Assembly (NCBI GenBank): GCA_017547805.1
Contig: JAFYOR010000068.1
Coordinates: 1 to 61,118 of the forward strand
Direction of reading: 5' to 3'
Origin: Clostridia bacterium
Lineage (GTDB): Bacteria > Bacillota > Clostridia > Christensenellales > Aristaeellaceae
DNA length: 61,118 nt
Both the position numbers and the translations under genes were made by a program. The notes beneath the pieces are model-generated. The model was not told the origin of the DNA, searched no databases, and saw only the letters and a list, made by a program, of their open reading frames with translations. Shown one piece after another: positions 7,515 through 57,095 of this stretch. Each line of letters opens with the position of its first letter. Within the stretch, counting starts at the first letter, position 1.

Positions 7515-9206
7515 TCACTTCTCCATCCCGCACGCCGCCGCTTCCCGGCTCATCCTGCGGTCGTTCATCACCGCATCATAGAACCTGAAGCCGCCCGCGA
7601 AATTGTAGCTTTCAAACCCAACCCCCGCCAGAATGCGCGACGCGATATAGCTCCTCAGCCCGCTCTGGCAGATGACGTATACCGGCTTGCCCGGCTCAAT
7701 CTCATCAATCCGTTCGCGCAGGCTATCCACAGGAATGTTGATAAACCCGTCCACATGCCCGCGCGCGTATTCGCCCGGCGTGCGCGTATCCAGCAGCGTC
7801 ACGCTGCCGTCGCGCGGCAGGGCGTCGGCTTCTTCCACAAACCACTGGCGCAGATCGCCGTTTCTGATGTTGTCGATCATGAAGCCCGCCATGTTCACCG
7901 GATCCTTCGCGGATGCATACGGCGGCGCATAGGCCAGATCCAGCTCCTTGAGCGATACAGCGTCAAGCCCGGCGAAAATCGCCGCCGCAATGACGTCGAT
8001 GCGCTTGTCCACACCGTCGAAGCCTATGATCTGCGCGCCGAGCAGGCGGAACGTCTTCTTTTCAAAGACGACCTTCATCGTCATCACCCTGCCGCCGGGA
8101 TAATACCCCGCATGGCTCATCGGCGAGAGGATCACCTTGTCCGCGTCGATGCCGGCGCGTCGGGCCGCCGTCTCGCTCACGCCCGTGCAGGCCGCCGTCA
8201 TGTCAAAAAGCTTGAGAATGCTGCTGCCGTAGGACGCGCGATAGCGGCTGTCCCGGCCGCAGATGTTGTCCGCCGCAATGCGGCCCTGCTTGTTCGCCGG
8301 TCCGGCGAGGGAAATCATCGTTTCTTCTCCGGTCACGCCGTTCTTTACCTGAACAGCGTCGCCCACGGCGTAGATATCCGGATCCGACGTCTGCATGCGC
8401 TCGTCCACGGCGATGCTGCCGCGCACGCCGAGCGTAAGCCCTGCCTTCGCCGCCAGCGCACTTTCCGGGAAAACGCCGATGGCCATCACCGCCATATCCG
8501 CATGCAGCGTGCCTGCGCGGTCGGTGATCACGTCGATGCCGTTCTGCGTTTCGCCAAAGCCCTGCACAGCCGTGCCCAGCCGGAGTTTCACGCCATGGCT
8601 GCGCAGCTGCGTGTGGATCAGCACCGCCATCTCTGGATCAAACGGCGTCATCAGCTGATCAAGCAGCTGAACGATGGTCACGTCCATGCCCAGCGCGCGC
8701 AGGTTTTCCGCCATCTCCAGCCCGATGAAGCCGCCGCCCACGACGACAGCCGACTTGACCGGATGCTCCGCGATAAACCGCTTGATGGCAAAGGTATCTT
8801 CCACCGTGCGCAGGGTAAAAAGGCGCTTCGCGTTCACGCCGGGCAGATTGGGCACGACGGGTTTTGCGCCGGGCGCGAGGAGAAGCTTGTCGTAGCTTTC
8901 CTCAAACTCCTCGCCGGTTTCAAGATTGCGGACGGCAACCGTCTTTTTCTGCGGATGGATGGCCGTCACCTCGTGACGCACCTTCACGTTCACGCGGAAG
9001 CGCCTGAAAAAGCTTTCCGGCGTCTGCAGCGTCAATTCCTCCGCGTCCTCGATCTCGCCGCCGATGTAATACGGCAGGCCGCAGTTGGCGTAGGACATAT
9101 AGCCCGAACGCTCAAAGACCTGAATTTCCGCCTGCTCGTCAAGCCTGCGGATTCTTGCCGCAGCCGTTGCGCCGCCGGCAACGCCGCCCACAATCACAAC
9201 CTTCAT
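7515..9206 (-). CDS. FAD-dependent CoA-disulfide reductase fused to a rhodanese domain
   Basis: 563 residues. Residues 1-445 are a pyridine nucleotide-disulfide oxidoreductase: the FAD-binding motif GGVAGGATAAAR at the N-terminus, the single active-site Cys42 in SYANCGLPYY (the position typical of CoA-disulfide reductases), an NAD(P)H-binding VVVGGGFIGLEMAE and the second FAD motif DIYAVGDA. The C-terminal rhodanese domain (about 460-555) has its active-site Cys513 in CQSGLRS. Family members reduce CoA disulfide, CoA persulfide or polysulfide, with the rhodanese passing sulfane sulfur. The start is MKVVIVGG, one base after the stop of the upstream rhodanese gene, which indicates translational coupling. 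It is the last gene of the thioredoxin-rhodanese-CoADR operon. The expected role is cytoplasmic thiol and persulfide homeostasis. Confidence 0.93.
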   Translation of the reverse strand: MKVVIVGGVAGGATAAARIRRLDEQAEIQVFERSGYMSYANCGLPYYIGGEIEDAEELTLQTPESFFRRFRVNVKVRHEVTAIHPQKKTVAVRNLETGEEFEESYDKLLLAPGAKPVVPNLPGVNAKRLFTLRTVEDTFAIKRFIAEHPVKSAVVVGGGFIGLEMAENLRALGMDVTIVQLLDQLMTPFDPEMAVLIHTQLRSHGVKLRLGTAVQGFGETQNGIDVITDRAGTLHADMAVMAIGVFPESALAAKAGLTLGVRGSIAVDERMQTSDPDIYAVGDAVQVKNGVTGEETMISLAGPANKQGRIAADNICGRDSRYRASYGSSILKLFDMTAACTGVSETAARRAGIDADKVILSPMSHAGYYPGGRVMTMKVVFEKKTFRLLGAQIIGFDGVDKRIDVIAAAIFAGLDAVSLKELDLAYAPPYASAKDPVNMAGFMIDNIRNGDLRQWFVEEADALPRDGSVTLLDTRTPGEYARGHVDGFINIPVDSLRERIDEIEPGKPVYVICQSGLRSYIASRILAGVGFESYNFAGGFRFYDAVMNDRRMSREAAACGMEK

Positions 9207-9207
9207 C

Positions 9208-9528
9208 TCAGGAGACCACCCTTCCGCGATAGGCGGCAATGCCGCCGATATTTCTGACGTTCACATACCCCATCTGCCTGAGCAGGCCTGCCGCCGTGCG
9301 GCTTCTCGCGCCGCTGGCACAGTAGACAAACAGCGGGGTACGTTTATTGTCCGTCACTTCGCTCACTTTGTCAATGGTCTGCAGGGGAAGGTTTTTGCTG
9401 CCGGGGATATGCCCCTGCCGGTATTCTTCCTGCGTACGCACATCCAGCAGCACCGCCTGCGGCTGCACGTCGTATTCTTCCAGTCCGCGGTTGATATCCA
9501 CAGGCCGGATCAAATCAAGGAAGCTCAT
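9208..9528 (-). CDS. Single-domain rhodanese (sulfurtransferase)
   Basis: 106 residues, one rhodanese domain. The aspartate-containing strand VLLDVRTQEEYRQGHIPGS and the active-site loop CASGARS (Cys70) are both intact. Such proteins accept sulfane sulfur as a cysteine persulfide and hand it to a thiol such as thioredoxin or CoA. It is the middle gene of a three-gene operon, 11 nt after thioredoxin and one base before the CoADR-rhodanese fusion, so the three probably handle the same persulfide intermediates. No signal peptide, so cytoplasmic. Confidence 0.93.
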   Translation of the reverse strand: MSFLDLIRPVDINRGLEEYDVQPQAVLLDVRTQEEYRQGHIPGSKNLPLQTIDKVSEVTDNKRTPLFVYCASGARSRTAAGLLRQMGYVNVRNIGGIAAYRGRVVS

Positions 9529-9539
9529 GTGATCCCTCC

Positions 9540-9845
9540 TTACAGCATCTCAAGGATGCGCACCTTGGGCTTTGCGCCCACGGACTTGCTGACCACCTTG
9601 CCTTCCCGGATAACCGCCAGCATCGGGATGCTCATCACGCCGAACTGCTGCGCGAGTTCGGGCTGCTCGTCCACATTGACCTTGCCCACCAGCACATCCG
9701 GACGCTCCTGAGCGATCTCGTCGATGACCGGCGCAATCATGCGGCACGGACCGCACCACGGCGCCCAGAAATCCAGCATCACAGGCTTCTTCGCCTCCAT
9801 CACCATTTCCTGGAAATTCGCTCGATTGATATGCATCACAGACAT
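9540..9845 (-). CDS. trxA: Thioredoxin
   Basis: 101 residues, normal thioredoxin length. The active site is FWAPWCGPCRMIAPV (Cys31 and Cys34), and the cis-proline is in MSIPML. It is a cytoplasmic disulfide reductant. The start follows AGGAGG by 8 nt. As first gene of an operon with two rhodanese-containing enzymes, it may serve persulfide reduction rather than be the general housekeeping thioredoxin; the symbol marks the family only. Transcription probably begins at a promoter at 9916-9944 controlled by the divergent Crp/Fnr protein. Confidence 0.94.
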   Translation of the reverse strand: MSVMHINRANFQEMVMEAKKPVMLDFWAPWCGPCRMIAPVIDEIAQERPDVLVGKVNVDEQPELAQQFGVMSIPMLAVIREGKVVSKSVGAKPKVRILEML

Positions 9846-9915
9846 CGCTTGATCCTCCTGTCTTTTGTTGCGTATTTTCCGGCGGACACCGTATTGTCCG
9901 TCTCTTTATGGTTGT

Positions 9916-9957
9916 ATCATACCGCGATAAAGCAGCTTTGTCGGTGATAAAATCACC
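9916..9957 (-). promoter_or_regulatory. Thioredoxin operon promoter with Crp/Fnr-type operator near -41
   Basis: On the minus strand a TATGAT -10 (9916-9921) lies 17 nt after CCGACA (9939-9944). A perfect 15-bp palindrome GGTGAT-AAA-ATCACC (9943-9957) overlaps that -35; its centre is about 41 bp upstream of the expected start, the class II activator position. GTGA/TCAC half-sites are those read by Crp-type recognition helices, and the divergent regulator has the matching Arg-Glu...Arg pattern. Confidence 0.6.
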
Positions 9958-9960
9958 AAA

Positions 9961-9989
9961 TTGACATTCTTCTCATCCCGGTTTATACT
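9961..9989 (+). promoter_or_regulatory. Sigma-A promoter of the Crp/Fnr regulator gene
   Basis: A consensus TTGACA (9961-9966), 17-nt spacer and TATACT (9984-9989) lie just upstream of the regulator. The 15-bp palindrome ends 3 bp before this -35, so the same bound protein could control both directions. Confidence 0.8.
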
Positions 9990-10012
9990 TCCTGACAGAA
10001 GGAGGCGCCATT

Positions 10013-10675
10013 ATGGACTTTTCGCAGGTTTTTCCGATTTTCAGCAAGCTGACCGATGAACAACAGGCCCGGATTTTATCCGTATGCCAGCAAAGCCGGG
10101 TTCGCGCGGGAACCATGCTGCACGACGGAAGCCCCGAATGCATGGGGCTGATCTTCGTGCGCAGCGGACAGCTCCGCGCGTACATGCTCTCCGAAGAGGG
10201 ACGCGAAATCACCATTTCCCGTTTTTTTGAGCGGGACGTCTGTTTGTTCTCCGCTTCCTGCGTGATGCCCAATATGCAGTTTGACATCTTCATCACAGCG
10301 GAAAAAGACAGCGAGCTCTACATCCTCCCCGCATGTCTTTACAAAAACCTGATGGATGAATCCCTCGCTGTCGCCAACTACTCCTGCGACCTGATTTCCC
10401 ATCACTTTTCCGAGCTGGTCTGGCTGATGGAGCAGATCATGTGGAAGAAGTTTGACGCGCGGCTGGCGCAGTTCCTGCTCAATGAGCGTTTGCTGGAAGG
10501 CACGGACGCGCTGGTGATCACCCACGATAAAATCGCCAACCACATGGGCACGGCGCGCGAGGTCGTCACGCGCATGCTGCGCTATTTCCAGAGCGAAAAC
10601 ATGGTCAGCCTCACGCGCGGCACGGTCAAGATCACGGACGCCAAGGCGCTTGCCGCCGTTGCGGGAGAAGCATAA
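10013..10675 (+). CDS. Crp/Fnr-family transcriptional regulator
   Basis: 220 residues. The N-terminal cyclic-nucleotide-binding-like beta barrel spans about 10-125 and a helix-turn-helix about 150-212. The recognition helix region HMGTAREVVTRMLRYF keeps Arg182, Glu183 and Arg187 in the spacing Crp uses to read GTGA. It does not have the four-cysteine pattern of the oxygen sensor Fnr, although several cysteines lie in the sensor domain (Cys77 and Cys83 among them). The gene is divergent from the thioredoxin-rhodanese-CoADR operon with one shared palindrome, so it most likely activates that operon in response to redox or sulfane sulfur stress; the signal is inferred. It has its own consensus promoter and a terminator. 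Confidence 0.92.
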   Translation: MDFSQVFPIFSKLTDEQQARILSVCQQSRVRAGTMLHDGSPECMGLIFVRSGQLRAYMLSEEGREITISRFFERDVCLFSASCVMPNMQFDIFITAEKDSELYILPACLYKNLMDESLAVANYSCDLISHHFSELVWLMEQIMWKKFDARLAQFLLNERLLEGTDALVITHDKIANHMGTAREVVTRMLRYFQSENMVSLTRGTVKITDAKALAAVAGEA

Positions 10676-10694
10676 ACGATTGATTTTGAGATGC

Positions 10695-10726
10695 AAAAAA
10701 CGCTAGTCTTTCGACTAGCGTTTTTT
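10695..10726. terminator. Bidirectional terminator between the Crp/Fnr gene and the FMN/TSCPD gene
   Basis: ACGCTAGT/ACTAGCGT stem flanked by A6 on the left and T6 on the right. It serves the plus-strand regulator and the minus-strand FMN-binding gene that converge here. Confidence 0.92.
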
Positions 10727-10772
10727 GTGTGTACGATTCAGATACGGATATGAATCCGTTGATCTGCGTGCA

Positions 10773-11486
10773 TTAGTGCTGAACGGTGCAGCCGTCGCAC
10801 AGGGTGCCGTTCATCAGCGCCTTGGCAGCCTTCAGGGCCTCGGCCAGCTGGTCCGGGCAGGAGTCAACGCCAGTGGCGCTGCCGGAGCACTGGATGCCAT
10901 CCAGGCGGGCGATGCACTCGTCAACGGTCAGGCCCTTGCACAGCGCGCCGAAGGCGTCGGAGGTGCCGTGGCAGCCGCCGTAAACGCGGACGTCCCAAAC
11001 GGTCATGTCCGGCTCGTAGATCGCGAAGCAGATGTACTCAGAGCAGACGTTGATGTTGACGTAGTTGAAGTAGTGGAACTTGTTCTTGATGAGCTTCTCG
11101 GTGATGCGCATGCAGACCGGCAGCACGACGACGGACTTGTCTTCGTAGCCCATGCCAGCGGCGTCCAGACCAGCCTTGGTCACGGCGTCAGCCACAGCGG
11201 CGGTGAAGCCGACGGTGGTGTAGGTCGCGCCGGCGATGTTGTCAACGGCCAGGGACTGGGTGTCGATGATCTGCTTGGTCAGGGTCTCGATGGCGACGCC
11301 GCCGATGGACGGGGTCTCATCGTTGGTGCCCATAGCGATGGCTTCGATCTTGCCATCGGTCACGGTGACGTTGACGGTCAGCGGCTTGAAGCCCTCGCCA
11401 ACACCTTCAAAAGTCTCGGCCATCGCCGCGACGGCGCACAGCATCAGCACGAGCGCGAGGCAAATGCTAACAATCTTCTTAGACAT
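10773..11486 (-). CDS. Secreted FMN-binding domain/TSCPD-domain fusion protein, copy 1
   Basis: 237 residues. A signal peptide (1-23, ending AMA-E) precedes an FMN-binding domain (about 30-110: TVNVTVTDGKIEAI, NDETPSIGG, then DNIAGATYT). Asp82 to Thr88 fits the flavin-transferase motif, so Thr88 may carry covalent FMN attached by an ApbE enzyme encoded elsewhere. The C-terminal half (about 135-225) resembles the TSCPD domain found at the end of B12-dependent ribonucleotide reductase: CSEYICFAIYEPD, VRVYGGCHGTSDAFGALC, GIQCSG and DSCPDQLAEAL. It ends with a CDGC motif. Ten cysteines lie outside the signal peptide. It is the second gene of a two-gene operon after the Tat-TSCPD gene. An extracytoplasmic electron-transfer role is inferred. 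Copy 2 is at 13056-13757. Confidence 0.78.
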   Translation of the reverse strand: MSKKIVSICLALVLMLCAVAAMAETFEGVGEGFKPLTVNVTVTDGKIEAIAMGTNDETPSIGGVAIETLTKQIIDTQSLAVDNIAGATYTTVGFTAAVADAVTKAGLDAAGMGYEDKSVVVLPVCMRITEKLIKNKFHYFNYVNINVCSEYICFAIYEPDMTVWDVRVYGGCHGTSDAFGALCKGLTVDECIARLDGIQCSGSATGVDSCPDQLAEALKAAKALMNGTLCDGCTVQH

Positions 11487-11554
11487 AGCAGGTAATCTCC
11501 TTACATTCAGTTGTTTTGTTTGAAAAATCAGACAATCAGGGGAATTCCTTCGGA

Positions 11555-12058
11555 TCAGACGTTAGCACAGGTGCCGGCTTCGCAGCCCGGGCAGGGAGTG
11601 CCGTGGATGATCATCAGCGCCTGCTGCAGGCCCAGCGCCAGCTGGTCAGCGCAGGAGGAACCGGACTGCTTGTTGCGGCAGACCAGGCCCAGAACGGTGG
11701 CGATGATCTCGGAAGCCGGACGGCCTTCGCTCATCGCGGCAATGCCCTTGCAGCCGCCTTCGCAGCCGCCTTCGTACTTGATGTTCTTGACATACTCTTC
11801 CTTGCCAACGATGTCGAACACGACATTCTTGGAGCAGGAACGGCCGTCGGTGGTGAACTTGAAGGTGCGCACGCCCTCAGCAGACGGAGCGAGCTCCTCA
11901 ATCAGCTTGCAGGGAGCAGCATTCGGCTTCCACGCGAACGGGATCTTCTCTTCTTCAGCAACGACCATCACCGGGGACAGAGCGGTCATCGCGGCGACGC
12001 CGGCGCCCAGCTTCAGGGTGTTCCTGAGGAAGTCGCGGCGAGTCTGGGTGTTCTTCAT
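11555..12058 (-). CDS. Tat-exported, cysteine-rich TSCPD-domain protein, copy 1
   Basis: 167 residues. The N-terminus MKNTQTRRDFLRNTLKLGAG is a classical twin-arginine signal, ending near Ala34. The mature part has a TSCPD-type domain (about 65-150): DGRSCSKNVVFDIV, YEGGCEGGCKGIAAMSEG, GLVCRN and SGSSCADQLALGL, followed by a CPGC motif and one more cysteine. Nine cysteines are present in all. Tat export moves folded proteins and often signals a bound metal or cofactor. The ATG at 12056-12058 follows GGAGG. It is the first gene of the operon with the FMN/TSCPD fusion, divergent from a response regulator. The function is unknown; thiol redox relay or metal binding are the likely options. Copy 2 is at 13825-14334. 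Confidence 0.8.
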   Translation of the reverse strand: MKNTQTRRDFLRNTLKLGAGVAAMTALSPVMVVAEEEKIPFAWKPNAAPCKLIEELAPSAEGVRTFKFTTDGRSCSKNVVFDIVGKEEYVKNIKYEGGCEGGCKGIAAMSEGRPASEIIATVLGLVCRNKQSGSSCADQLALGLQQALMIIHGTPCPGCEAGTCANV

Positions 12059-12065
12059 AATGGTA

Positions 12066-12160
12066 TCTCCTCCATCACTTTTTTGATACGTCGTCATCAT
12101 AGGCGCCTAAAATTGACGCAGACGCCCCTTGCGATCATATCCTTGTGAAGATAATAACAA
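12066..12160 (-). promoter_or_regulatory. Conserved leader/promoter element of TSCPD operon, copy 1
   Basis: This 95-nt stretch differs at only two positions from 14343-14437. On the minus strand it holds a TATGAT -10 (12134-12139) with no good -35, which suggests an activator, then a 5' leader with a hairpin (12102-12108 with 12120-12126) and the GGAGG site. The base change inside the hairpin arm turns a pair into a U-G wobble, so pairing is kept. Confidence 0.6.
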
Positions 12161-12167
12161 CCATATG

Positions 12168-12229
12168 TGACATTTTTTTGACATTTCAGGCACGTAATAG
12201 TGACATCTGTGGCGGAGCTGTGTTATAAT
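12168..12229 (+). promoter_or_regulatory. Response regulator 1 promoter with three phased TGACAT repeats
   Basis: GTGACA (12200-12205), an 18-nt spacer and a perfect TATAAT (12224-12229) precede the regulator gene. TGACAT occurs at 12168, 12179 and 12201, i.e. 11 and 22 bp apart, on one face of the helix. Phased direct repeats are how OmpR-type regulators bind, so autoregulation is likely. Confidence 0.6.
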
Positions 12230-12259
12230 CGCCACACTTTATAGCGCAAGGAGACATGT

Positions 12260-12958
12260 ATGGAGCATATTCTGATCGCTGATGATGATCCAAAAATCGC
12301 GGCTATTATCAGCGAGTTTGTCAAAAGTCATGGATATATTCCCGAAATTGCCTATGACGGCAGGCAAGCGTTAGAAATGTTTGCCAAGAGGGACTACTCC
12401 GCCATTCTGCTGGACGTGATGATGCCCCATATGAACGGCTTTGTGGTCTGCCGGGAAATTCGTCGCACTTCAAATGTTCCTATCATCATGATCACCGCCC
12501 GCGGCGAAGACTTTGAGCGAATCATGGGGCTGGATACGGGCGCAGACGATTATATTGTCAAGCCCTTCTCCGGCGAGGAAGTCATGGCACGCCTGCGCGC
12601 AATCCGCCGCCGCGTCCTGCCGACGGAATGCACCCCATCTGCCCGCCTGATGACATTCGGCAACCTGACCATCGACGTGAGCAACGTGCAGGTTTTCATC
12701 GACGAGAAGCCGCTTTCTCTGACCAAGAAGGAACTGGAGATCCTTTTCACATTGACCGAAAACGTCGGCAAGCTCTTTTCAAGAGATATGCTCCTGAATA
12801 TCGTTTGGGGATACGATTATTATGGAGACAGCCGCACAGTGGATACGCATATCAAGCGCCTGCGCGCAAAACTGGACGTCTTTGATCATCCCGACTGGCA
12901 GATCAAGACCGTTTGGGGGCTGGGATACCGTTTTGAAATCACAGACAACAAAGAATAA
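12260..12958 (+). CDS. OmpR-family response regulator, copy 1 (no adjacent kinase)
   Basis: 232 residues. The receiver domain (1-118) has the acidic pair Asp8-Asp9, phospho-acceptor Asp52 in LLDVMMP, and Lys101 in DYIVKPF. The C-terminal winged helix (about 130-228) has LTKKELEILFTL, RDMLLNIVWGYDYYGDSRTVD and the wing GLGYRFE. It controls transcription when phosphorylated by a partner kinase. It is divergent from the copy 1 TSCPD operon and no kinase gene follows it, while the very similar regulator at 14553 is coupled to one. It is probably phosphorylated by that kinase or has become independent. An own promoter and a terminator flank it. Confidence 0.94.
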   Translation: MEHILIADDDPKIAAIISEFVKSHGYIPEIAYDGRQALEMFAKRDYSAILLDVMMPHMNGFVVCREIRRTSNVPIIMITARGEDFERIMGLDTGADDYIVKPFSGEEVMARLRAIRRRVLPTECTPSARLMTFGNLTIDVSNVQVFIDEKPLSLTKKELEILFTLTENVGKLFSRDMLLNIVWGYDYYGDSRTVDTHIKRLRAKLDVFDHPDWQIKTVWGLGYRFEITDNKE

Positions 12959-12989
12959 ATCGAAAGAGCACGCTTTTTTTCGTAAAACA

Positions 12990-13017
12990 AAAGAGATCCC
13001 CTTTCGAGGATCTCTTT
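12990..13017. terminator. Bidirectional terminator between response regulator 1 and FMN/TSCPD copy 2
   Basis: AAAGAGATCC/GGATCTCTTT stem with an 8-nt loop; T-rich sequence follows on both strands. It serves the converging genes ending at 12958 and 13056. Confidence 0.85.
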
Positions 13018-13055
13018 CGTTTTCAGAAGTTATCTAACATTAATCCCGCCGAGGA

Positions 13056-13757
13056 TTAGTGCTCGATGGTGCAGCCGTCGCACAGGGTGCCCAGGATCTT
13101 CGCCTTGGCAACCTTCAGGCCCTGAGCAGTCTGGTCCGGGCAAGAGGTGTAGCCGGAGCACTCGATGCCTTCCAGGCGGGCGATGCACTCGTCAACGGTC
13201 AGGCCCTTGCACAGAGCGCCAAACGCGTCGGAGGTGCCGTGGCAGCCGCCGTAAACGCGGACGTCCCAAACGGTCATGTCCGGTTCGTAGATCGCGAACA
13301 TGATGTACTCGGAGCAGACGTCAACCGGAGTGAACTTGAAGTAGTGGAACTTGTTCTTGAGCAGCAGCTCTTCGATGCGCATGCAAGCCGGCAGAACGAC
13401 GACGGTGTTGTCGACGTAGCCCATGGCAGCGGCGTCCAGACCAGCCTTGGTCACGGCGTCAGCCACAGCGGCGGTGAAGCCATTGGTGGTGTAGGTCGCG
13501 CCGGCGATGTTGTCAACGGCCAGGGACTGGGTCTCCAGGATCTTCGCGGTCAGGGTCTCGATGGCAGCGCCGCCGATGGACGGGGTCTCATCGTTGGTGC
13601 CCATGGCGATGGCTTCGATCTTGCCATCGGTAATGGTGACGTTGACGGTCAGCGGCTTGAAGCCCTCGCCGACGCCCTCAAAGGTTTCCGCCATAGCGGC
13701 GACAGCGCACAGAACCAGCATCAGCGCCAGGCAAATGCTAATAATCTTCTTAGACAT
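13056..13757 (-). CDS. Secreted FMN-binding domain/TSCPD-domain fusion protein, copy 2
   Basis: 233 residues, colinear with copy 1: signal peptide 1-23, FMN-binding domain with Asp82 to Thr88 in DNIAGAT, TSCPD-like region with VRVYGGCHGTSDAFGALC and TSCPDQTAQGL, and a terminal CDGC. The TSCPD signature itself is written out literally here (residues 204-208). Nine cysteines lie outside the signal peptide; relative to copy 1 it lacks Cys153. The first 120 residues are almost identical to copy 1, while the region around 125-145 and the tail have diverged, so the copies may differ in partner. It follows Tat-TSCPD copy 2 by 67 nt and is presumably co-transcribed with it. Confidence 0.78.
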   Translation of the reverse strand: MSKKIISICLALMLVLCAVAAMAETFEGVGEGFKPLTVNVTITDGKIEAIAMGTNDETPSIGGAAIETLTAKILETQSLAVDNIAGATYTTNGFTAAVADAVTKAGLDAAAMGYVDNTVVVLPACMRIEELLLKNKFHYFKFTPVDVCSEYIMFAIYEPDMTVWDVRVYGGCHGTSDAFGALCKGLTVDECIARLEGIECSGYTSCPDQTAQGLKVAKAKILGTLCDGCTIEH

Positions 13758-13824
13758 AGCAGGTAATCTCCTTACGTTATGTTGTTTTTGAAAAAAATCA
13801 GACTGTCAGGGAATTACACGAAAA

Positions 13825-14334
13825 TTAGGCGTTGACGCAGGTGGTGCCTTCGCAGCCCGGGCAACCGGTGCCACGGACGATCTTCAGCGCCTGCTGCAGG
13901 CCGAGGGCCAGCTGATCGGCGCAGGAAGAACCGGACGCCTTGTTGCGGCAGACCAGGCCCAGCACGGTGGCGATGATCTCGGAAGCCGGACGGCCCTCAG
14001 ACATAGCAGCGATGCCCTTGGTGCCGCCAGTGCAGCCGCCTTCATAAACGATGTTCTTAACGATCTCTTCCTTCTCGACGAGGTCAAACACGACGCTCTT
14101 GGAGCAGGAACGACCGTCGGTGGTGAACTTGAAGGAACGGACGCCCTCAGCAGCCGGAGCGAGCTCCTCGATCAGCTGGCAGGGAGCAGCGTTCGGCACC
14201 CAAGCGAAGGGAACCTTCTCAACTTCTTCAGCGACAGCGCCCATCACCGGGGCAAGAGCGGTCATCGCGGCGACGCCAGCGCCCAGCTTCAGGGAGTTCC
14301 TGAGGAAGTCGCGGCGAGTCTGGATGTTCTTCAT
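13825..14334 (-). CDS. Tat-exported, cysteine-rich TSCPD-domain protein, copy 2
   Basis: 169 residues. The twin-arginine signal MKNIQTRRDFLRNSLKLGAG is nearly the same as in copy 1. The domain cysteines are kept (GRSCSK, EGGC, GLVCRN, SGSSCADQ, CPGC), but EGGCEGGC of copy 1 is EGGCTGGT here, so one cysteine of a CxxxC pair is lost. That is the most interesting difference between the copies if the pair binds metal or forms a disulfide. The start at 14332-14334 follows GGAGG. It is the first gene of operon copy 2, divergent from the response regulator at 14553. Function unknown. Confidence 0.8.
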   Translation of the reverse strand: MKNIQTRRDFLRNSLKLGAGVAAMTALAPVMGAVAEEVEKVPFAWVPNAAPCQLIEELAPAAEGVRSFKFTTDGRSCSKSVVFDLVEKEEIVKNIVYEGGCTGGTKGIAAMSEGRPASEIIATVLGLVCRNKASGSSCADQLALGLQQALKIVRGTGCPGCEGTTCVNA

Positions 14335-14342
14335 AATGGTAT

Positions 14343-14437
14343 TCTCCTCCATCACTTTTTTGATACGTCGTCATCATAGGCGTCTAAAATTGACGCAGAC
14401 GCCCCTTTCGATCATATCCTTGTGAAGATAATAACAA
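14343..14437 (-). promoter_or_regulatory. Conserved leader/promoter element of TSCPD operon, copy 2
   Basis: Matches 12066-12160 at 93 of 95 positions. The leader hairpin has a perfect 7-bp stem here (14379-14385 with 14397-14403). The upstream flanks of the two copies are unrelated, so conservation stops sharply at the end of this element. Confidence 0.6.
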
Positions 14438-14506
14438 ATATTTATGTTTATTATTTGTTTTTTTGCGTTCTTTTGTATGGTATTCAAGCCGTGTATGTGT
14501 TGTGTA

Positions 14507-14515
14507 TGCTATAAT
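14507..14515 (+). promoter_or_regulatory. Extended -10 promoter of response regulator 2
   Basis: TGC directly precedes a perfect TATAAT (14510-14515), giving an extended -10. There is no good -35. The phased TGACAT repeats of copy 1 are absent, so the two regulators are probably controlled differently. Confidence 0.55.
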
Positions 14516-14552
14516 TAAGTCACAATCTGCACACATATAAGGAGTTACCATT

Positions 14553-15254
14553 GTGGATAGAATCCTGATTGCCGACGACAATCTTCAGATCACGAAAATC
14601 ATCAGCGAATTTGTCAAAGCCGCCGGCTTTGATCCCGTGATTGCATCCAATGGCAGGGAAGCCTTGGATCTGTTTCATAAGGAAAAATTCGCTGTCATCC
14701 TGCTGGACGTCATGATGCCCCAAATGGACGGCTTTGCCCTCTGCCGGGAAATCCGCCGCACTTCCAGTGTCCCCATCATCATGATTACCGCCCGCGGCGA
14801 GGATTTTGAGCGCGTGATGGGGCTGGATATCGGCGCGGACGATTACATCGTCAAGCCCTTCTCGGGCGAGGAAGTCATGGCCCGCATCCGCGCCATCCTG
14901 CGCAGGATCGACCGTTCCTCCAGCCTGTCGATGACCCGCCGCCAGCTCACCATCGGCAGCCTGTTCATCGATCTGGACGACGCCCGCGTGACCATCGACG
15001 GTCAAAGCATCCAGCTGACGAAGAAGGAGCTGGAAATCCTTTACACCCTTGCCGAAAACAGCGAAAAACTCTTTTCGCGCGAGGTGCTTTTGAGCAGCCT
15101 CTGGGGCTACGATTACTACGGCGACAGCCGCACGGTGGACAGCCACGTTAAGCGCCTTCGTGCAAAGCTGGACGCCGTTCCCCATCCCGACTGGCAGATC
15201 AAAACCGTCTGGGGGCTGGGATACAAATTCGAGGTGACTGCGTTTGAAGAATAA
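14553..15254 (+). CDS. OmpR-family response regulator, copy 2
   Basis: 233 residues, same architecture as the regulator at 12260: Asp52 as phospho-acceptor, Lys101 and a winged helix with LTKKELEILYTLAENSEKLF. It starts with GTG, 8 nt after AAGGAG. The histidine kinase gene begins inside its last codons (11-nt overlap), so they form a coupled two-component pair. It is divergent from TSCPD operon copy 2, which is its most likely target together with copy 1, because the target leaders are nearly identical. Confidence 0.95.
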   Translation: MDRILIADDNLQITKIISEFVKAAGFDPVIASNGREALDLFHKEKFAVILLDVMMPQMDGFALCREIRRTSSVPIIMITARGEDFERVMGLDIGADDYIVKPFSGEEVMARIRAILRRIDRSSSLSMTRRQLTIGSLFIDLDDARVTIDGQSIQLTKKELEILYTLAENSEKLFSREVLLSSLWGYDYYGDSRTVDSHVKRLRAKLDAVPHPDWQIKTVWGLGYKFEVTAFEE

Positions 15255-16701
15255 AATCGCAAAGCGTCTAACACTGTATTTTATTTCCGTCCTTTTGGTC
15301 TTTGCATTGATTGCCGGCTCGCTGTTTTCTCTGATGTTCGCCCGGCATACCGCCGACGTCACCGCCAAAGACATGCGCGAGCACGCTGAATCCATCGCCG
15401 CAACGCTCTCCCACTTTATCGCCAACTACGTTCAGGGAGAATGTCAGGGCGGCGGTTTCAAGTCCTATACGCGCTTCATCGCTGACGCCGCCACGGGCGA
15501 CCTGTTCCTGTTTGACCAGAACTACGGACCGGTGACGCTGGGCGAAATGGCGCTGCCGGATACGGACCTGCCCGAAGGTGCAGCGGCGCTGATCGACAGG
15601 GTATACGAAGAAAACGACGTCATCAGCGAATCGTTTTCCACATCCCTTTTCCATGCCGACAACCTGATCGCCGGCGCGCCCATCCACGACAAGGACGGCA
15701 ATGTGCTCTATGCGCTCCTGCTCTGCTCGCCCGCCGGCAGCATCGATCATGCGCAGCAGGATACCGTCTATATCCTCGCCGCTTGTCTTAGCATCGCCGG
15801 TATTCTGGGCGTCATCGTTTCCGATATTCTCTCTCATCGATTCGTCACCCCGCTCAACCGCATGATGGACACGACGACGCAGCTGACGCAGGGCAACTAC
15901 GACGCAAAGACGAACGTCCGGCAGAACGATGAAATCGGCACCCTCGCCCGGCATATCGACACCCTCGCGCAGGAGCTCGCCGCGGCAGAAAAGGAACGCA
16001 GTCAGCTCGAGCAGATGCGTCAGGACTTCTTTTCCGACATCTCCCACGAGCTTCGCACCCCGATCGCCGTGCTCAAGGGGAATGCAGAACTGCTTCAAAG
16101 CGGCATTATCACCGAGCCCGCCAAGCTGCAGTCCGCATACGACCAGCTCAGCGCCGACGCCACCCACATCCAGCATCTGGTCAACGACCTGCTGGAGCTG
16201 ACGCGGCTGCAGAACCCCCATTTTACCATCGATATGGCCGTCATCAACCTGCCCGACGTCCTTTCCGACACGGTGCGCTCCATGCGTCAGGCAGCGCAGA
16301 AAAAGCAGATTACCCTTCAGCTTGAAAGTCCGGTCAGCCTGTACCCCGTGCTGGGCGATTACGGCAGGCTGCGCCAGCTGATGATCGTTCTTCTGGATAA
16401 CGCCATCAAATTCTCTCCCGAGCAGTCCGTCATCCGCATCATCGTCACGCCGGACGGCGAGCGCTGTGCGGTATCCGTCGTCGATCAGGGAACGGGGATT
16501 GAGCCGCAGGCGCTTGAACACATCTTTGACCGCTATTTCCACAGCCGCTCCCGCCACAATGCCGGCGGCTCCGGTCTGGGCCTGCCCATCGCCAAGGAAA
16601 TCGCGCTGCGCCATAATCTTGACTTCACCTGCACAAGCGAGGTCGGCAAGGGCACCTGCTTTACCCTCGTCTTTGTCAGGCAGGAACCGCAGGAGGAGTG
16701 A
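15244..16701 (+). CDS. Membrane sensor histidine kinase with HAMP domain
   Basis: 485 residues starting with TTG inside the regulator gene. Transmembrane helices lie at about 11-32 and 174-195, enclosing an extracytoplasmic sensor domain of about 140 residues that holds two cysteines (Cys67 in GECQGG and Cys161). A HAMP linker (about 196-248), a HisKA domain with His268 in DISHELRTP, and a HATPase domain (LLDNAIKFSP, DQGTGI, GGSGLGLPIAKE) follow. It should phosphorylate the upstream regulator. Because the controlled genes encode exported thiol and flavin proteins, a redox signal outside the cell is possible and the external cysteines may matter; that is inference. A terminator at 16782 closes the operon. 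Confidence 0.94.
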   Translation: MKNKIAKRLTLYFISVLLVFALIAGSLFSLMFARHTADVTAKDMREHAESIAATLSHFIANYVQGECQGGGFKSYTRFIADAATGDLFLFDQNYGPVTLGEMALPDTDLPEGAAALIDRVYEENDVISESFSTSLFHADNLIAGAPIHDKDGNVLYALLLCSPAGSIDHAQQDTVYILAACLSIAGILGVIVSDILSHRFVTPLNRMMDTTTQLTQGNYDAKTNVRQNDEIGTLARHIDTLAQELAAAEKERSQLEQMRQDFFSDISHELRTPIAVLKGNAELLQSGIITEPAKLQSAYDQLSADATHIQHLVNDLLELTRLQNPHFTIDMAVINLPDVLSDTVRSMRQAAQKKQITLQLESPVSLYPVLGDYGRLRQLMIVLLDNAIKFSPEQSVIRIIVTPDGERCAVSVVDQGTGIEPQALEHIFDRYFHSRSRHNAGGSGLGLPIAKEIALRHNLDFTCTSEVGKGTCFTLVFVRQEPQEE

Positions 16702-16781
16702 TTCCCCCCGCCGGATGCATACTCCGCAAAGAACGAGCCGCACCCGCACATCCGGAATATCGCGCAATTCCCATAACGAAA

Positions 16782-16830
16782 ACAGCCTCCCGTCTGCAGC
16801 ATGCTGCAAACGGGAGGCTGTCTGTGTTTT
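16782..16830. terminator. Bidirectional terminator after the kinase and the GH39 gene
   Basis: A 12-bp stem, ACAGCCTCCCGT with its complement (16782-16793 and 16810-16821), encloses a loop with an internal CTGCAGCATGCTGCA-type pairing. T-rich sequence follows on both strands. Confidence 0.85.
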
Positions 16831-41083: not shown

Positions 41084-41175
41084 ATAACCAAGTCTTCGGC
41101 GTTCTGTATTTGCATCTGTATGTATGCGGGTCGACAAAAGCATACATGTGGAAATAAATCATGGAGGGAAAATCT

Positions 41176-42531
41176 ATGAAGAAACTGTTTTCTCTGCTCC
41201 TGGCCGTCATGATGCTTTGCATGAGCTTCGCCGCTCTTGCTGAAGTGCCGGAAGGCTATCCCGAGATCAAAGAAGGCGTCGACCTTGGCGGCGCTGAAGT
41301 CTTCATCTACGACTACTGGACCGCCAGCGCTGACCGCAAGGCCGAACCGAACGAAGAAGAGCAGGCCCAGTATGACTACCGCGACTGGATCGAGGCGACC
41401 TACAACTGCAAGATCACCCAGATCCAGAAGGGCGACTGGACAACCAATGTTCAGGAGCTCATCAACTTCTGTACCGCTCCGGACGGCACCCTGTGCCTGT
41501 TCATCCTGCCGCCGGATTTCGTCGGCACCCCGATGGCCAATAACCTCTTCGCCGACTGGTCCAAGACCGACCTGATCGACCTGACCGCGGACAAGTGGAA
41601 CGCTTCCACCGTCGGCTTCATGACCAAGGCGGGCGGCGTCTACGGCGTTGCGACCGGCAACTCCGAGCCGCGTCAGTGCCTGTTCTTCAACAAGCGCGTG
41701 CTTGAAGAAGCCGGCATCGACTGGGAGACCATCTATGACATGCAGGCCGAAGGCACCTGGACCTGGGCTGCGTTTGAAGACATGCTCAAGCAGATCAACA
41801 AGGATACCGACAACGATGGCATCCTTGACATCTATGGCATGACCGGCAACAACAGCGACCTGTACCTCATGGGCGCGTTCTCCAACGGCGGCACCTTCTT
41901 CGCCTTTGACGAAGCGGGCAAGCTGACCATCACCGCGAACAGCGACGAGACCCTCGAAGGCCTCGCCTGGGCGAAGGAAATCTGGGCCAACTACGGCTAT
42001 CAGCAGCCGGCTGACGGTTCCTGGGATTACTTCAAGGATGCCTGGAAGCAGGGCTTCTGCGGCTTCTACATGTATCAGACCTACGGCGGCTTCAACGACA
42101 ACTCCGAAATGGCCGACATGGCTGACGAGTGGGGCTGCGTTGCTTTCCCGATGGGCCCGAAGGGCACGACCTATCTGAGCGTTACCAGCGACAACGTCAC
42201 CGTCATCCCGAACGTGTATGATGACGAGACCGTCGGCAAGCTGGCCCTGATCTATGATCTGTGGACCAATGCGACCCCGGGCTACGACGATGAATTCGGC
42301 TGGATCGGCAACAAGTACAACTTCACCGACGATCGCGCTGTTGACGAGACCTACGCCATGCTGCGCGAGCCGGAGCACTGTGCCTCCAACGCCGTCCTGT
42401 ACATCGGCTCCCTGAACGACGTTCTGGGCAGCCCGCTGCTCTGGCAGCTCGGCGGCGCCACCCCGCAGGAGCTGGTCGAAGCGGCCACCCCGGCCTGGCA
42501 GGCTCTGTGCGACACCTTCAACGCGAACTGA
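41176..42531 (+). CDS. ABC transporter sugar-binding protein
   Basis: 451 residues. Signal peptide MKKLFSLLLAVMMLCMSFAA ends ALA-E without a usable lipobox. The mature part is a family 1 solute-binding protein (ADRKAEPNEEEQAQYDYRDW, GVYGVATGNSEPRQCLFFNK, TWTWAAFEDMLKQINKDTDN), rich in Trp and Tyr as expected for sugar binding. The ATG at 41176 lies 7 nt after GGAGGG; an in-frame ATG five codons upstream contains that site and is less likely. It follows the permease pair at 39057-41037 and has its own promoter. Ligand unknown, perhaps a xylan fragment because a secreted GH10 follows. Confidence 0.92.
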   Translation: MKKLFSLLLAVMMLCMSFAALAEVPEGYPEIKEGVDLGGAEVFIYDYWTASADRKAEPNEEEQAQYDYRDWIEATYNCKITQIQKGDWTTNVQELINFCTAPDGTLCLFILPPDFVGTPMANNLFADWSKTDLIDLTADKWNASTVGFMTKAGGVYGVATGNSEPRQCLFFNKRVLEEAGIDWETIYDMQAEGTWTWAAFEDMLKQINKDTDNDGILDIYGMTGNNSDLYLMGAFSNGGTFFAFDEAGKLTITANSDETLEGLAWAKEIWANYGYQQPADGSWDYFKDAWKQGFCGFYMYQTYGGFNDNSEMADMADEWGCVAFPMGPKGTTYLSVTSDNVTVIPNVYDDETVGKLALIYDLWTNATPGYDDEFGWIGNKYNFTDDRAVDETYAMLREPEHCASNAVLYIGSLNDVLGSPLLWQLGGATPQELVEAATPAWQALCDTFNAN

Positions 42532-55850: not shown

Positions 55851-57095
55851 TTACTCAGCCATCTTCTCGGCGACTTCCGCAACGGCGTCCTCGAGGATCT
55901 CCTCGACGGTGCCATCGGCAAACTGCAGGCGCTCAAAAGCGGTTCTGAACGCGCCGACAGCCGGGTTGCCGATCTTGCCGCGCAGGCCAGCCGGCTGCAC
56001 AGCGTAGTTCAGGCTCTCCAGGATGCCCATGTTGGCCTCGCCGTAGTTCGCCTTCATCTCCTCCAGCAGAGCGTCAGAGGTCGGCAGAGCGGCAGTGTAC
56101 TGGGCGCGCAGCGCAGCGCACTCGGAGCCGGACAGCGCCTTGATGACTTCCCAGGCAGCAGCCGGGTTCTTGCAGTTCTTGCTGACGGCGAACGCGGAGG
56201 CGCACAGGTAGTTGGCGTGGTTGCCCGGAACAACGGCGGTGCCGTAGTTGCAGCCGGAGTTCTCGAAGGTCGCCTTATCCCAGGCGCCGGAGATGGTCAT
56301 GGCGAGCTTGCCGTTGATGAGCATCGCGGAAGCGGAGCCGAAGGTGTCCTGATCGGCGGCGTCCGGAGAGATGCGGTCCTCGCCGATGGAGAAATTCACA
56401 TACTCCTGCAGAGCAGCGGCCATCTCCGGGCTGTTGAGGTAGCCCTCAACGGCGGTGCAGTCCTCATTGACGATATCAAGGCCCTTGGAGGTGAAGTAGG
56501 TCAGCGCAGCGTACTCCCAGCTCTGAGCGTTGAAGCCGAAGCACTCGTAGTTGCCCTTCTCGTCCTTCACGGTCATCTTCTTGGCGGCCGCGATGGCGTC
56601 GTCCCAGGTCCAGTCAGCGGTCGGATACTCGACGCCGTACTTATCGAACACGTCCTTGTTATAGAACAGGCACAGCGGGTTGTAGTCGCGAACGAAGTAG
56701 TACTGCTCGCCGCCGATGTTGCCGAAGTTATACAGGGCGGTGTTCATCTCGTTGACCCACTCGGTGTCCTTGGCGATGAACTCGTTCATGGACAGCGGCA
56801 TGTTGACGCCGACCCACTTGTAGAAGTCGCCTTCGCCGGAAGCGAAGATGTCGTAGCCGTCGCCGGAGGAGAAGGAAGTCAGCAGGCGGTCGCCGTAGCC
56901 ATCGCCCGGGACAACGTCAGCGATGACTTCGATGTCGTCATGCTCGGCGTTGAACTTCTCGATCATCTGCATCTCAGCGTCGTTCGCGGACACTTCGCCC
57001 CACCAGGTGATGCGGATGGTGGTCTTTTCCGCGCAGGCCAGCACAGACATGCACACGAGGGCCAGGCACAGAACCAGCAGAACCAGTTTCTTCAT
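55851..57095 (-). CDS. ABC transporter sugar-binding protein
   Basis: 414 residues. The signal peptide (1-21) ends SVLACAEK; this could be processed as a lipoprotein at Cys20 (VLAC is a weak lipobox) or by signal peptidase I after ACA. The mature protein is a family 1 solute-binding protein: TIRITWWGEVSANDAEMQMI, DIEVIADVVPGDGYGDRLL, YFVRDYNPLCLFYNKDVFDK and a C-terminal helical lobe. It works with the two permeases downstream and is preceded by two LacI-type palindromes and the LacI-family gene, so it is the controlled first gene of the transport operon. Confidence 0.93.
   Translation of the reverse strand: MKKLVLLVLCLALVCMSVLACAEKTTIRITWWGEVSANDAEMQMIEKFNAEHDDIEVIADVVPGDGYGDRLLTSFSSGDGYDIFASGEGDFYKWVGVNMPLSMNEFIAKDTEWVNEMNTALYNFGNIGGEQYYFVRDYNPLCLFYNKDVFDKYGVEYPTADWTWDDAIAAAKKMTVKDEKGNYECFGFNAQSWEYAALTYFTSKGLDIVNEDCTAVEGYLNSPEMAAALQEYVNFSIGEDRISPDAADQDTFGSASAMLINGKLAMTISGAWDKATFENSGCNYGTAVVPGNHANYLCASAFAVSKNCKNPAAAWEVIKALSGSECAALRAQYTAALPTSDALLEEMKANYGEANMGILESLNYAVQPAGLRGKIGNPAVGAFRTAFERLQFADGTVEEILEDAVAEVAEKMAE

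Follow-up and report, generated by a model that had tools for sequence, protein, structure and literature searches.

The window analysed here is a 61,118-nucleotide stretch of contig JAFYOR010000068.1 (Clostridia bacterium, assembly GCA_017547805.1), and positions 10773-16701 of it hold two tandem cassettes, each with genes for two predicted exported proteins, T and F, next to a response regulator of the OmpR type. T carries a TSCPD domain, and F is a fusion of an FMN_bind domain (FMN, flavin mononucleotide) with a TSCPD domain; together they may form a redox pair that works outside the cytoplasm. A first-pass annotation of the sequence had described the region as a duplicated exported module under two-component control, and all seven genes were confirmed where it had placed them. 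In each cassette T lies upstream of F on the minus strand and the regulator is divergent from T. A kinase is found only behind the second regulator, and copy 1 is without one of its own. The features, with the two suffixes denoting the copies, are as follows.

10773-11486, minus strand: F1, with a Sec-type (general secretion) signal peptide (by eye), FMN_bind at residues 34-102, TSCPD at residues 143-221 and a C-terminal CDGC
11223-11243, minus strand: flavinylation-like motif D82-N-I-A-G-A-T88 of F1, with Thr88 as the predicted FMN attachment site (motif DxxxGAT, from the available part of PMC10339131)
11555-12058, minus strand: T1, with the twin-arginine translocation (Tat) signal TRRDFLRN and a TSCPD domain, rich in cysteine; extension of the open frame as far as 12100 is possible
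12142-12160, minus strand: operator-like box TTGTTATTATCTTCACAAG, ~84 bp upstream of T1
12200-12229, plus strand: sigma-70-like promoter ahead of RR1, with 11 of 12 consensus bases and TG before the second hexamer
12260-12958, plus strand: RR1, OmpR-type response regulator (Pfam) with no adjoining kinase
13056-13757, minus strand: F2, secreted FMN_bind-TSCPD fusion (Pfam)
13494-13514, minus strand: flavinylation-like motif D-N-I-A-G-A-T of F2 (computed position)
13825-14334, minus strand: T2, Tat-signal TSCPD protein (Pfam, TIGR01409)
14419-14437, minus strand: operator-like box upstream of T2, of the same sequence as the T1 box (pattern match)
14553-15254, plus strand: RR2, OmpR-type response regulator (Pfam)
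15244-16701, plus strand: HK, membrane sensor kinase with HAMP, HisKA and HATPase_c (Pfam), and with GECQGGGFKSYTRF in the part before HAMP

Domains, export signals and copies of the cassette

The domains expected in these proteins were recovered over the Pfam cut-offs. TSCPD (PF12637) is present in all four exported proteins with scores of 48.5-60.4 bits (E 2e-16 to 1e-12; curated cut-off 22.8 bits), which bears out its earlier assignment to both T and F, and FMN_bind (PF04205) was matched in F1 (E 7e-11) and F2 (E 3e-12). Both RR1 and RR2 have Response_reg and Trans_reg_C, and their best NCBIfam models are of the MtrA type (213 and 225 bits, respectively). Among the 25 best NCBIfam rows for each, the regulators and the kinase reached no curated cut-off, and the four exported proteins, at 50.4-64.2 bits, did not reach the 67.7 bits of TIGR03905. 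The Tat-signal model TIGR01409 (cut-off 16.7 bits) was matched by T1 (19.0 bits) and T2 (17.3 bits); for the Pfam and NCBIfam searches T1 was entered minus its first two residues. By eye, F starts with a simple Sec-type signal that has no lipobox, and the genome has one TatC match. As predicted earlier, T and F would thus be an exported pair, T probably leaving by Tat and F by Sec.

The two copies are 84% identical for F and 84-85% for T, and only 66-67% for the regulators. The source genome, a 2.67 Mb draft that is 83% complete, contains 7 TSCPD matches, 10 FMN_bind matches, and a third complete cassette on another, unlinked contig, in which a regulator and a kinase are divergent from T-F. 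This third cassette, together with the maintenance of the pair in related genomes (below), indicates that the tandem arrangement is more than chance, and a chance or artefactual origin was rejected on these grounds. We regard the parts and their linkage as practically certain.

Conservation, control and expression of the T-F pair

Related loci were collected with an F profile from 200 genomes of the family, with a T profile from 308 genomes of the family, and with F from 398 genomes of the phylum; matches were listed best first, and loci outside the window were mostly judged by eye rather than by domain searches. Among the matches listed, full-length F occurs in 9 of the 200 family genomes, the source included, the other matches being to the FMN_bind or TSCPD part alone. 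T directly adjoins F in eight of these nine, in agreement with the earlier expectation that the pair would be kept together; in the ninth (G068), where F begins at base 13 of the contig, the T profile matches nothing in the genome but F itself. Full-length T was listed in the same eight genomes, with a further fragment at a contig edge in G608, and the remaining T-profile matches cover the TSCPD part only. In the phylum sample, the source genome is the only one with full-length F among the matches listed.

From a scan of named genomes 80 loci were kept, and its listed matches are mostly to the TSCPD part, in proteins of mostly 80-90 amino acids. A TSCPD profile was built from 66 of the 77 loci that remained once three F-like ones had been taken out. 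One frame, L092:9998-10288 (G090:C8), has an F-like TSCPD end with a C-terminal CxxC and no FMN_bind in frame, and resembles a remnant of F. An origin from mobile elements was considered and rejected: none of 14 matching plasmid records had a near-full match to F at 80% coverage, none of nine F pattern matches in viral contigs was confirmed, and no PHROG matched F1 or T1. Nor did any plasmid show near-identity to 9900-16800 when searched with that stretch.

The proposal of two-component control was upheld in part. A regulator and a kinase stand beside T-F at window copy 2 and at L008, L080, L081, L083 and L084, and a regulator alone at copy 1. RR2 and HK have no match in the 19.5-kb T-F loci L085 and L087, nor in L082 within the ~1.4 kb past T at which the contig ends. 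With this uneven presence, the T-F pair forms the core of the cassette, which two-component genes accompany often but not always.

Aligned regions upstream of T share a conserved block. With up to 2 mismatches, the 19-mer TTGTTATTMTCTTMACRAG has three matches in the genome, all of them ~84 bp ahead of a T gene, whereas the pattern read backwards has none; in the window there are two matches with up to 3 mismatches, versus 0.04 expected. The box is also found upstream of T, with 0-1 mismatches, in L080, L081, L082 and L083, and would be the binding site of the regulator. At L082:11517-11535 (the T-F locus of G096) the box is kept where no regulator was matched before the contig end, and this pair is perhaps regulated from elsewhere. 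Sigma-70-like sites in the region number four, versus 3.1 by chance. All six cassette kinases have the motif G-x-C-x-GGGF-[KR]-[SA]-Y-x-RF before HAMP, which is missing from a paralogous kinase in L081; this conserved cysteine motif is no more than suggestive of redox or metal sensing. We consider it probable that the neighbouring regulators control T-F.

Codon usage sets the exported proteins apart from their regulators, with an effective number of codons (ENC) of 25-33 for F and T versus 36-49 for the cassette regulators and kinases. Within a background set of 109 genes (chosen by a heuristic, and including F and T themselves), F1 and F2 rank lowest, with values below those of S12 (31.7), S7 (31.0) and EF-G (29.7) in the same genome, S7 and EF-G having been named by eye. 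Synonymous divergence (dS) is likewise low, at 0.18-0.53 between F/T copies or species versus 1.0-2.2 for regulators and kinases. Gene conversion, which may have contributed, was rejected as the main cause, since dS is also low between species (0.18-0.45 versus 1.0-1.3 for regulators and kinases), which codon bias fits better. The extreme bias of F and the strong bias of T suggest abundant, highly expressed proteins. Two other frames in the window, 55851-57095 and 41161-42531, have signal-peptide-like starts and ENC values of 25.9 and 29.5; by eye, the first may encode a solute-binding protein.

Flavin attachment and the TSCPD cysteines

Attachment motifs for FMN are given, in the parts of the sources available, as DxxxGAT and Dxx[S/T]GA[S/T]-like (PMC10339131) and as [S/T]GA[S/T] (PMC8238504). 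The DNIAGAT of F1 and F2 fits DxxxGAT and not [S/T]GA[S/T], having A in the place of S/T. In a set of 11 F proteins, the final Ala-Thr is found in all, the Asp in 10 (one has Glu), and Gln replaces the motif Gly in three. The closest solved structure to the F profile is 8p2b, domain 1 of CbFMN4 (E 1.5e-18), in which FMN is covalently bound to Thr67 (available part of PMC10339131), and the genome has one ApbE match (1.3e-57), on another contig. Motif conservation, the match to 8p2b and the presence of ApbE make FMN attachment to F likely, and the covalent flavin suggested earlier stands as a prediction of that grade. The Gln for Gly in three proteins and the A for S/T in F1 and F2 could alternatively mean that FMN_bind and TSCPD serve merely as structural or substrate-binding folds, with no flavin attached; however, the retained Asp and Ala-Thr, the ApbE gene and the close match to a covalent-FMN structure make this very improbable.

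F accounts for three of the genome's 10 FMN_bind matches, and a Pfam scan of the seven others gave four fusions with FAD_binding_2, one fusion with C_GCAxxG_C_C, one protein with SH3 and zinc-ribbon domains, and one FMN_bind alone. The C_GCAxxG_C_C fusion (L010:1486-2424, G000:C98) has a twin-arginine start (by eye) and a C-terminal FMN_bind. Exported flavoproteins other than F therefore seem to be in use in this cell, including a second cysteine-flavin design. No short RnfG/NqrC-like subunit is apparent among the seven, as judged by Pfam, which has no model naming it, in a draft genome.

The cysteines of the pair are strongly conserved. All 11 F proteins compared have the four TSCPD cysteines, all 10 T proteins share seven cysteines, and a CxxC follows the domain in every T and in 8 of the 11 F. 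For the domain itself, the profile comparisons point to the N-terminal scaffold domain of IscU and NifU (NifU_N). With hhalign, 66 standalone TSCPDs aligned to 60 NifU_N sequences over 74 columns with a probability of 92.6 (score 41.6, P 4.7e-7), compared with control scores of 18.7 for the best of 60 column shuffles, 15.2 for the reversed profile, 20.8 for FMN_bind and 15.8 for the receiver domain; 20 half-samples gave probabilities of 83.5-91.8. In global mode (probability 83.0) the first, second and last TSCPD cysteines pair with three scaffold cysteines, which we take to be Cys37, Cys63 and Cys106 of E. coli IscU; the local alignment omits the first. An hmmsearch of 7,416 open reading frames with the TSCPD profile returned NifU proteins as all of its first 40 non-TSCPD matches (best E 4.7e-4). 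In the reverse search, 60 of the first 80 non-NifU matches were TSCPDs, which is a weaker test because the loci had been chosen for holding NifU and the NifU profile was made from them. The Pfam NifU_N model matched neither F and T (E up to 1) nor ten standalone TSCPDs (searched up to E 10 with the HMMER filters active), and T had no significant match among solved structures, NifU 8ztq (E 0.73) ranking behind five sequences of which three are ribosomal L23.

The profile link between TSCPD and IscU/NifU, judged apart from Pfam clan placement, appears to be new here. A metal or iron-sulfur (Fe-S) centre on TSCPD as in IscU is a tentative prospect, with the odds somewhat against it. The C-terminal domain of LplA was rejected as the nearest relative of TSCPD, being weaker (probability 42.7, 18 columns; 14 of 20 loci used), and its weak Pfam matches, in 3 of 10 standalone TSCPDs, are paralleled by those of ribosomal L22. 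Weak NifU_N matches at about profile positions 37-96 (E ~1e-5 to 6e-4) were also seen in G000:C46:968-1141 and many relatives, mostly in frames of 200-270 amino acids, which could be a further IscU-like family.

A possible flavin/cysteine redox pair and its alternatives

Each part of T-F has counterparts elsewhere. F resembles the ApbE-dependent flavinylated proteins (NqrC/RnfG type, CbFMN4) in its FMN_bind domain, DxxxGAT-like motif and signal peptide, and in the ApbE of its genome; unlike them, it is fused to a cysteine domain, its cassette shows no apbE and no membrane donor, and T-F usually comes with its own two-component genes. The small TSCPD proteins of TIGR03905 share the domain and the four cysteines with F and T, but are mostly 80-90 amino acids long and have no signal peptide (by eye). 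With the IscU/SufU/NifU scaffold there is the profile link over most of TSCPD and the global pairing of three cysteines, whereas TSCPD is shorter, without the N-terminal part, has the Asp of CGD replaced and one cysteine more, and here carries export signals. The C_GCAxxG_C_C fusion, with its twin-arginine start (by eye), likewise couples FMN_bind to cysteines in an exported-looking protein, though its cysteine domain is a different one and it is a single protein.

For the combination itself, the earlier impression that no such system had been described agrees with our literature search, which found no system like T-F and no paper joining the TSCPD domain with FMN binding; a search on TSCPD with NifU and IscU had no TSCPD among its best-ranked matches. 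The term TSCPD has no occurrence in the main text, as available, of the eLife 2021 flavinylation survey (PMC8238504), and "cysteine" and "fused" have none in the available text of the mSystems flavinylation paper. A single mention of TSCPD appears in the available part of a paper that, by its title, concerns methanol oxidation in Desulfofundulus.

We propose, with a probability of about 0.45, that T and F are a dedicated extracytoplasmic flavin/cysteine (metal or Fe-S) redox pair, probably very abundant. In this scheme, T would fold in the cytoplasm, where the IscU-like cysteines of its TSCPD domain would probably acquire a metal or Fe-S centre, and would then leave via Tat. F would leave via Sec, and ApbE would join FMN to Thr88 outside the membrane. 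The two proteins, both with a TSCPD domain, would probably associate, and their association would allow electron exchange of the flavin with the cysteine/metal centre as well as with a partner outside. An envelope signal would be read by the kinase via its cysteine-containing sensor, and the kinase would, through the regulator, turn on T-F via the box ~80-85 bp upstream of T. The association of F with T and the signal of the kinase are presumed in this scheme, and electron exchange between the two centres has a little under an even chance.

A more specific form of the proposal is that of an extracytoplasmic IscU-like system, in which T would provide a metal or Fe-S scaffold, F a covalent flavin and the cysteine-glycine kinase the control, with TSCPD as a trimmed, four-cysteine branch of IscU/SufE. 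Such a system would be, to our knowledge, the first of its kind; we consider it doubtful.

Several observations, besides the two departures in the flavin motif, weigh against the redox-pair reading, which is drawn from sequence comparison. The IscU link depends on standalone TSCPDs: when F and T rows are added, the probability against NifU_N drops to 87.4 locally and 52.8 globally, and profiles of T or F only (10-11 rows each) miss NifU_N (probabilities 1.4 and 3.7). Of the 10 T proteins, 8 retain the first TSCPD cysteine; it is lost in the L085/L087 clade, in which F is also without its C-terminal CxxC. Upstream of T in L084, L085 and L087, no box was found even when 3 mismatches were allowed. 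T is less codon-biased than F (ENC 29.3 and 31.0, or 34.4 and 31.8 with extended starts), and the G135 enolase gene, expected to be highly expressed, has an ENC of 45.6. Finally, no membrane electron-transfer component was found among the seven cassette and three neighbouring proteins (Pfam) or by eye at the other loci, and the same cassette and neighbouring proteins include no NapH-, MsrQ-, PepSY-, DsbD- or NQR/RNF-like membrane partner.

The same conserved cysteines might instead serve in metal capture or reduction, where TSCPD would act in the wall space as a ligand of iron, zinc or a soft metal, the flavin would reduce the metal or its carrier, and the kinase would sense metal. IscU-like proteins bind zinc and iron, and the seven invariant cysteines of T are in keeping with such a role, as is a codon bias suggestive of the bulk amounts that a buffer would need. 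Zinc and the stability of IscU are the topic of PMC4243993 (seen in part), and flavinylation genes colocalize with iron-transporter genes according to the available part of PMC8238504. However, no transporter is common to the loci (by eye), a TauE-like gene standing beside F in L080 only, and the cztR/silR/copR model scores below the MtrA type (163 versus 213 bits for RR1, 168 versus 225 for RR2), and we judge this explanation unlikely.

Alternatively, the cysteines could cycle as disulfides or carry sulfur, with the flavin oxidising or reducing them, in a thiol/disulfide or persulfide module. SufU and IscU accept persulfide, which offers a parallel, and the CxxC after the domain, the C_GCAxxG_C_C-FMN_bind fusion with its Tat-like start, and a thioredoxin, rhodanese and CoA-disulfide reductase cluster beside cassette 1 all fit such a module. 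Yet the CxxC is missing in 3 of 11 F proteins, and the cluster, with its Crp-type regulator, finds no match in the available stretches of 10 other loci, nine of which have T or full-length F; its linkage to the cassette was accordingly rejected, and we consider a thiol module quite unlikely.

Under the redox-pair reading, T-F belongs among the flavinylated extracytoplasmic redox proteins, to which it would add a cysteine/metal-flavin class, with a possible larger point on the TSCPD fold. The named-genome scan met TSCPD proteins at hundreds of sites at least, many of them of gut or rumen origin among the matches listed, yet the domain is hardly mentioned in the literature searched. The IscU/NifU link gives a concrete test for them, namely iron, sulfide or zinc on the four cysteines, and the T-F cassette lends itself to assays, as it unites an export route, a flavin and regulation.

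The cluster beside cassette 1 lies on the minus strand and comprises a CoA-disulfide reductase-rhodanese fusion, a single rhodanese and a thioredoxin (the last by eye); with the adjoining regulator of the Crp/Fnr type it takes up 7515-9845 and 10013-10675 of the window, next to the cassette.

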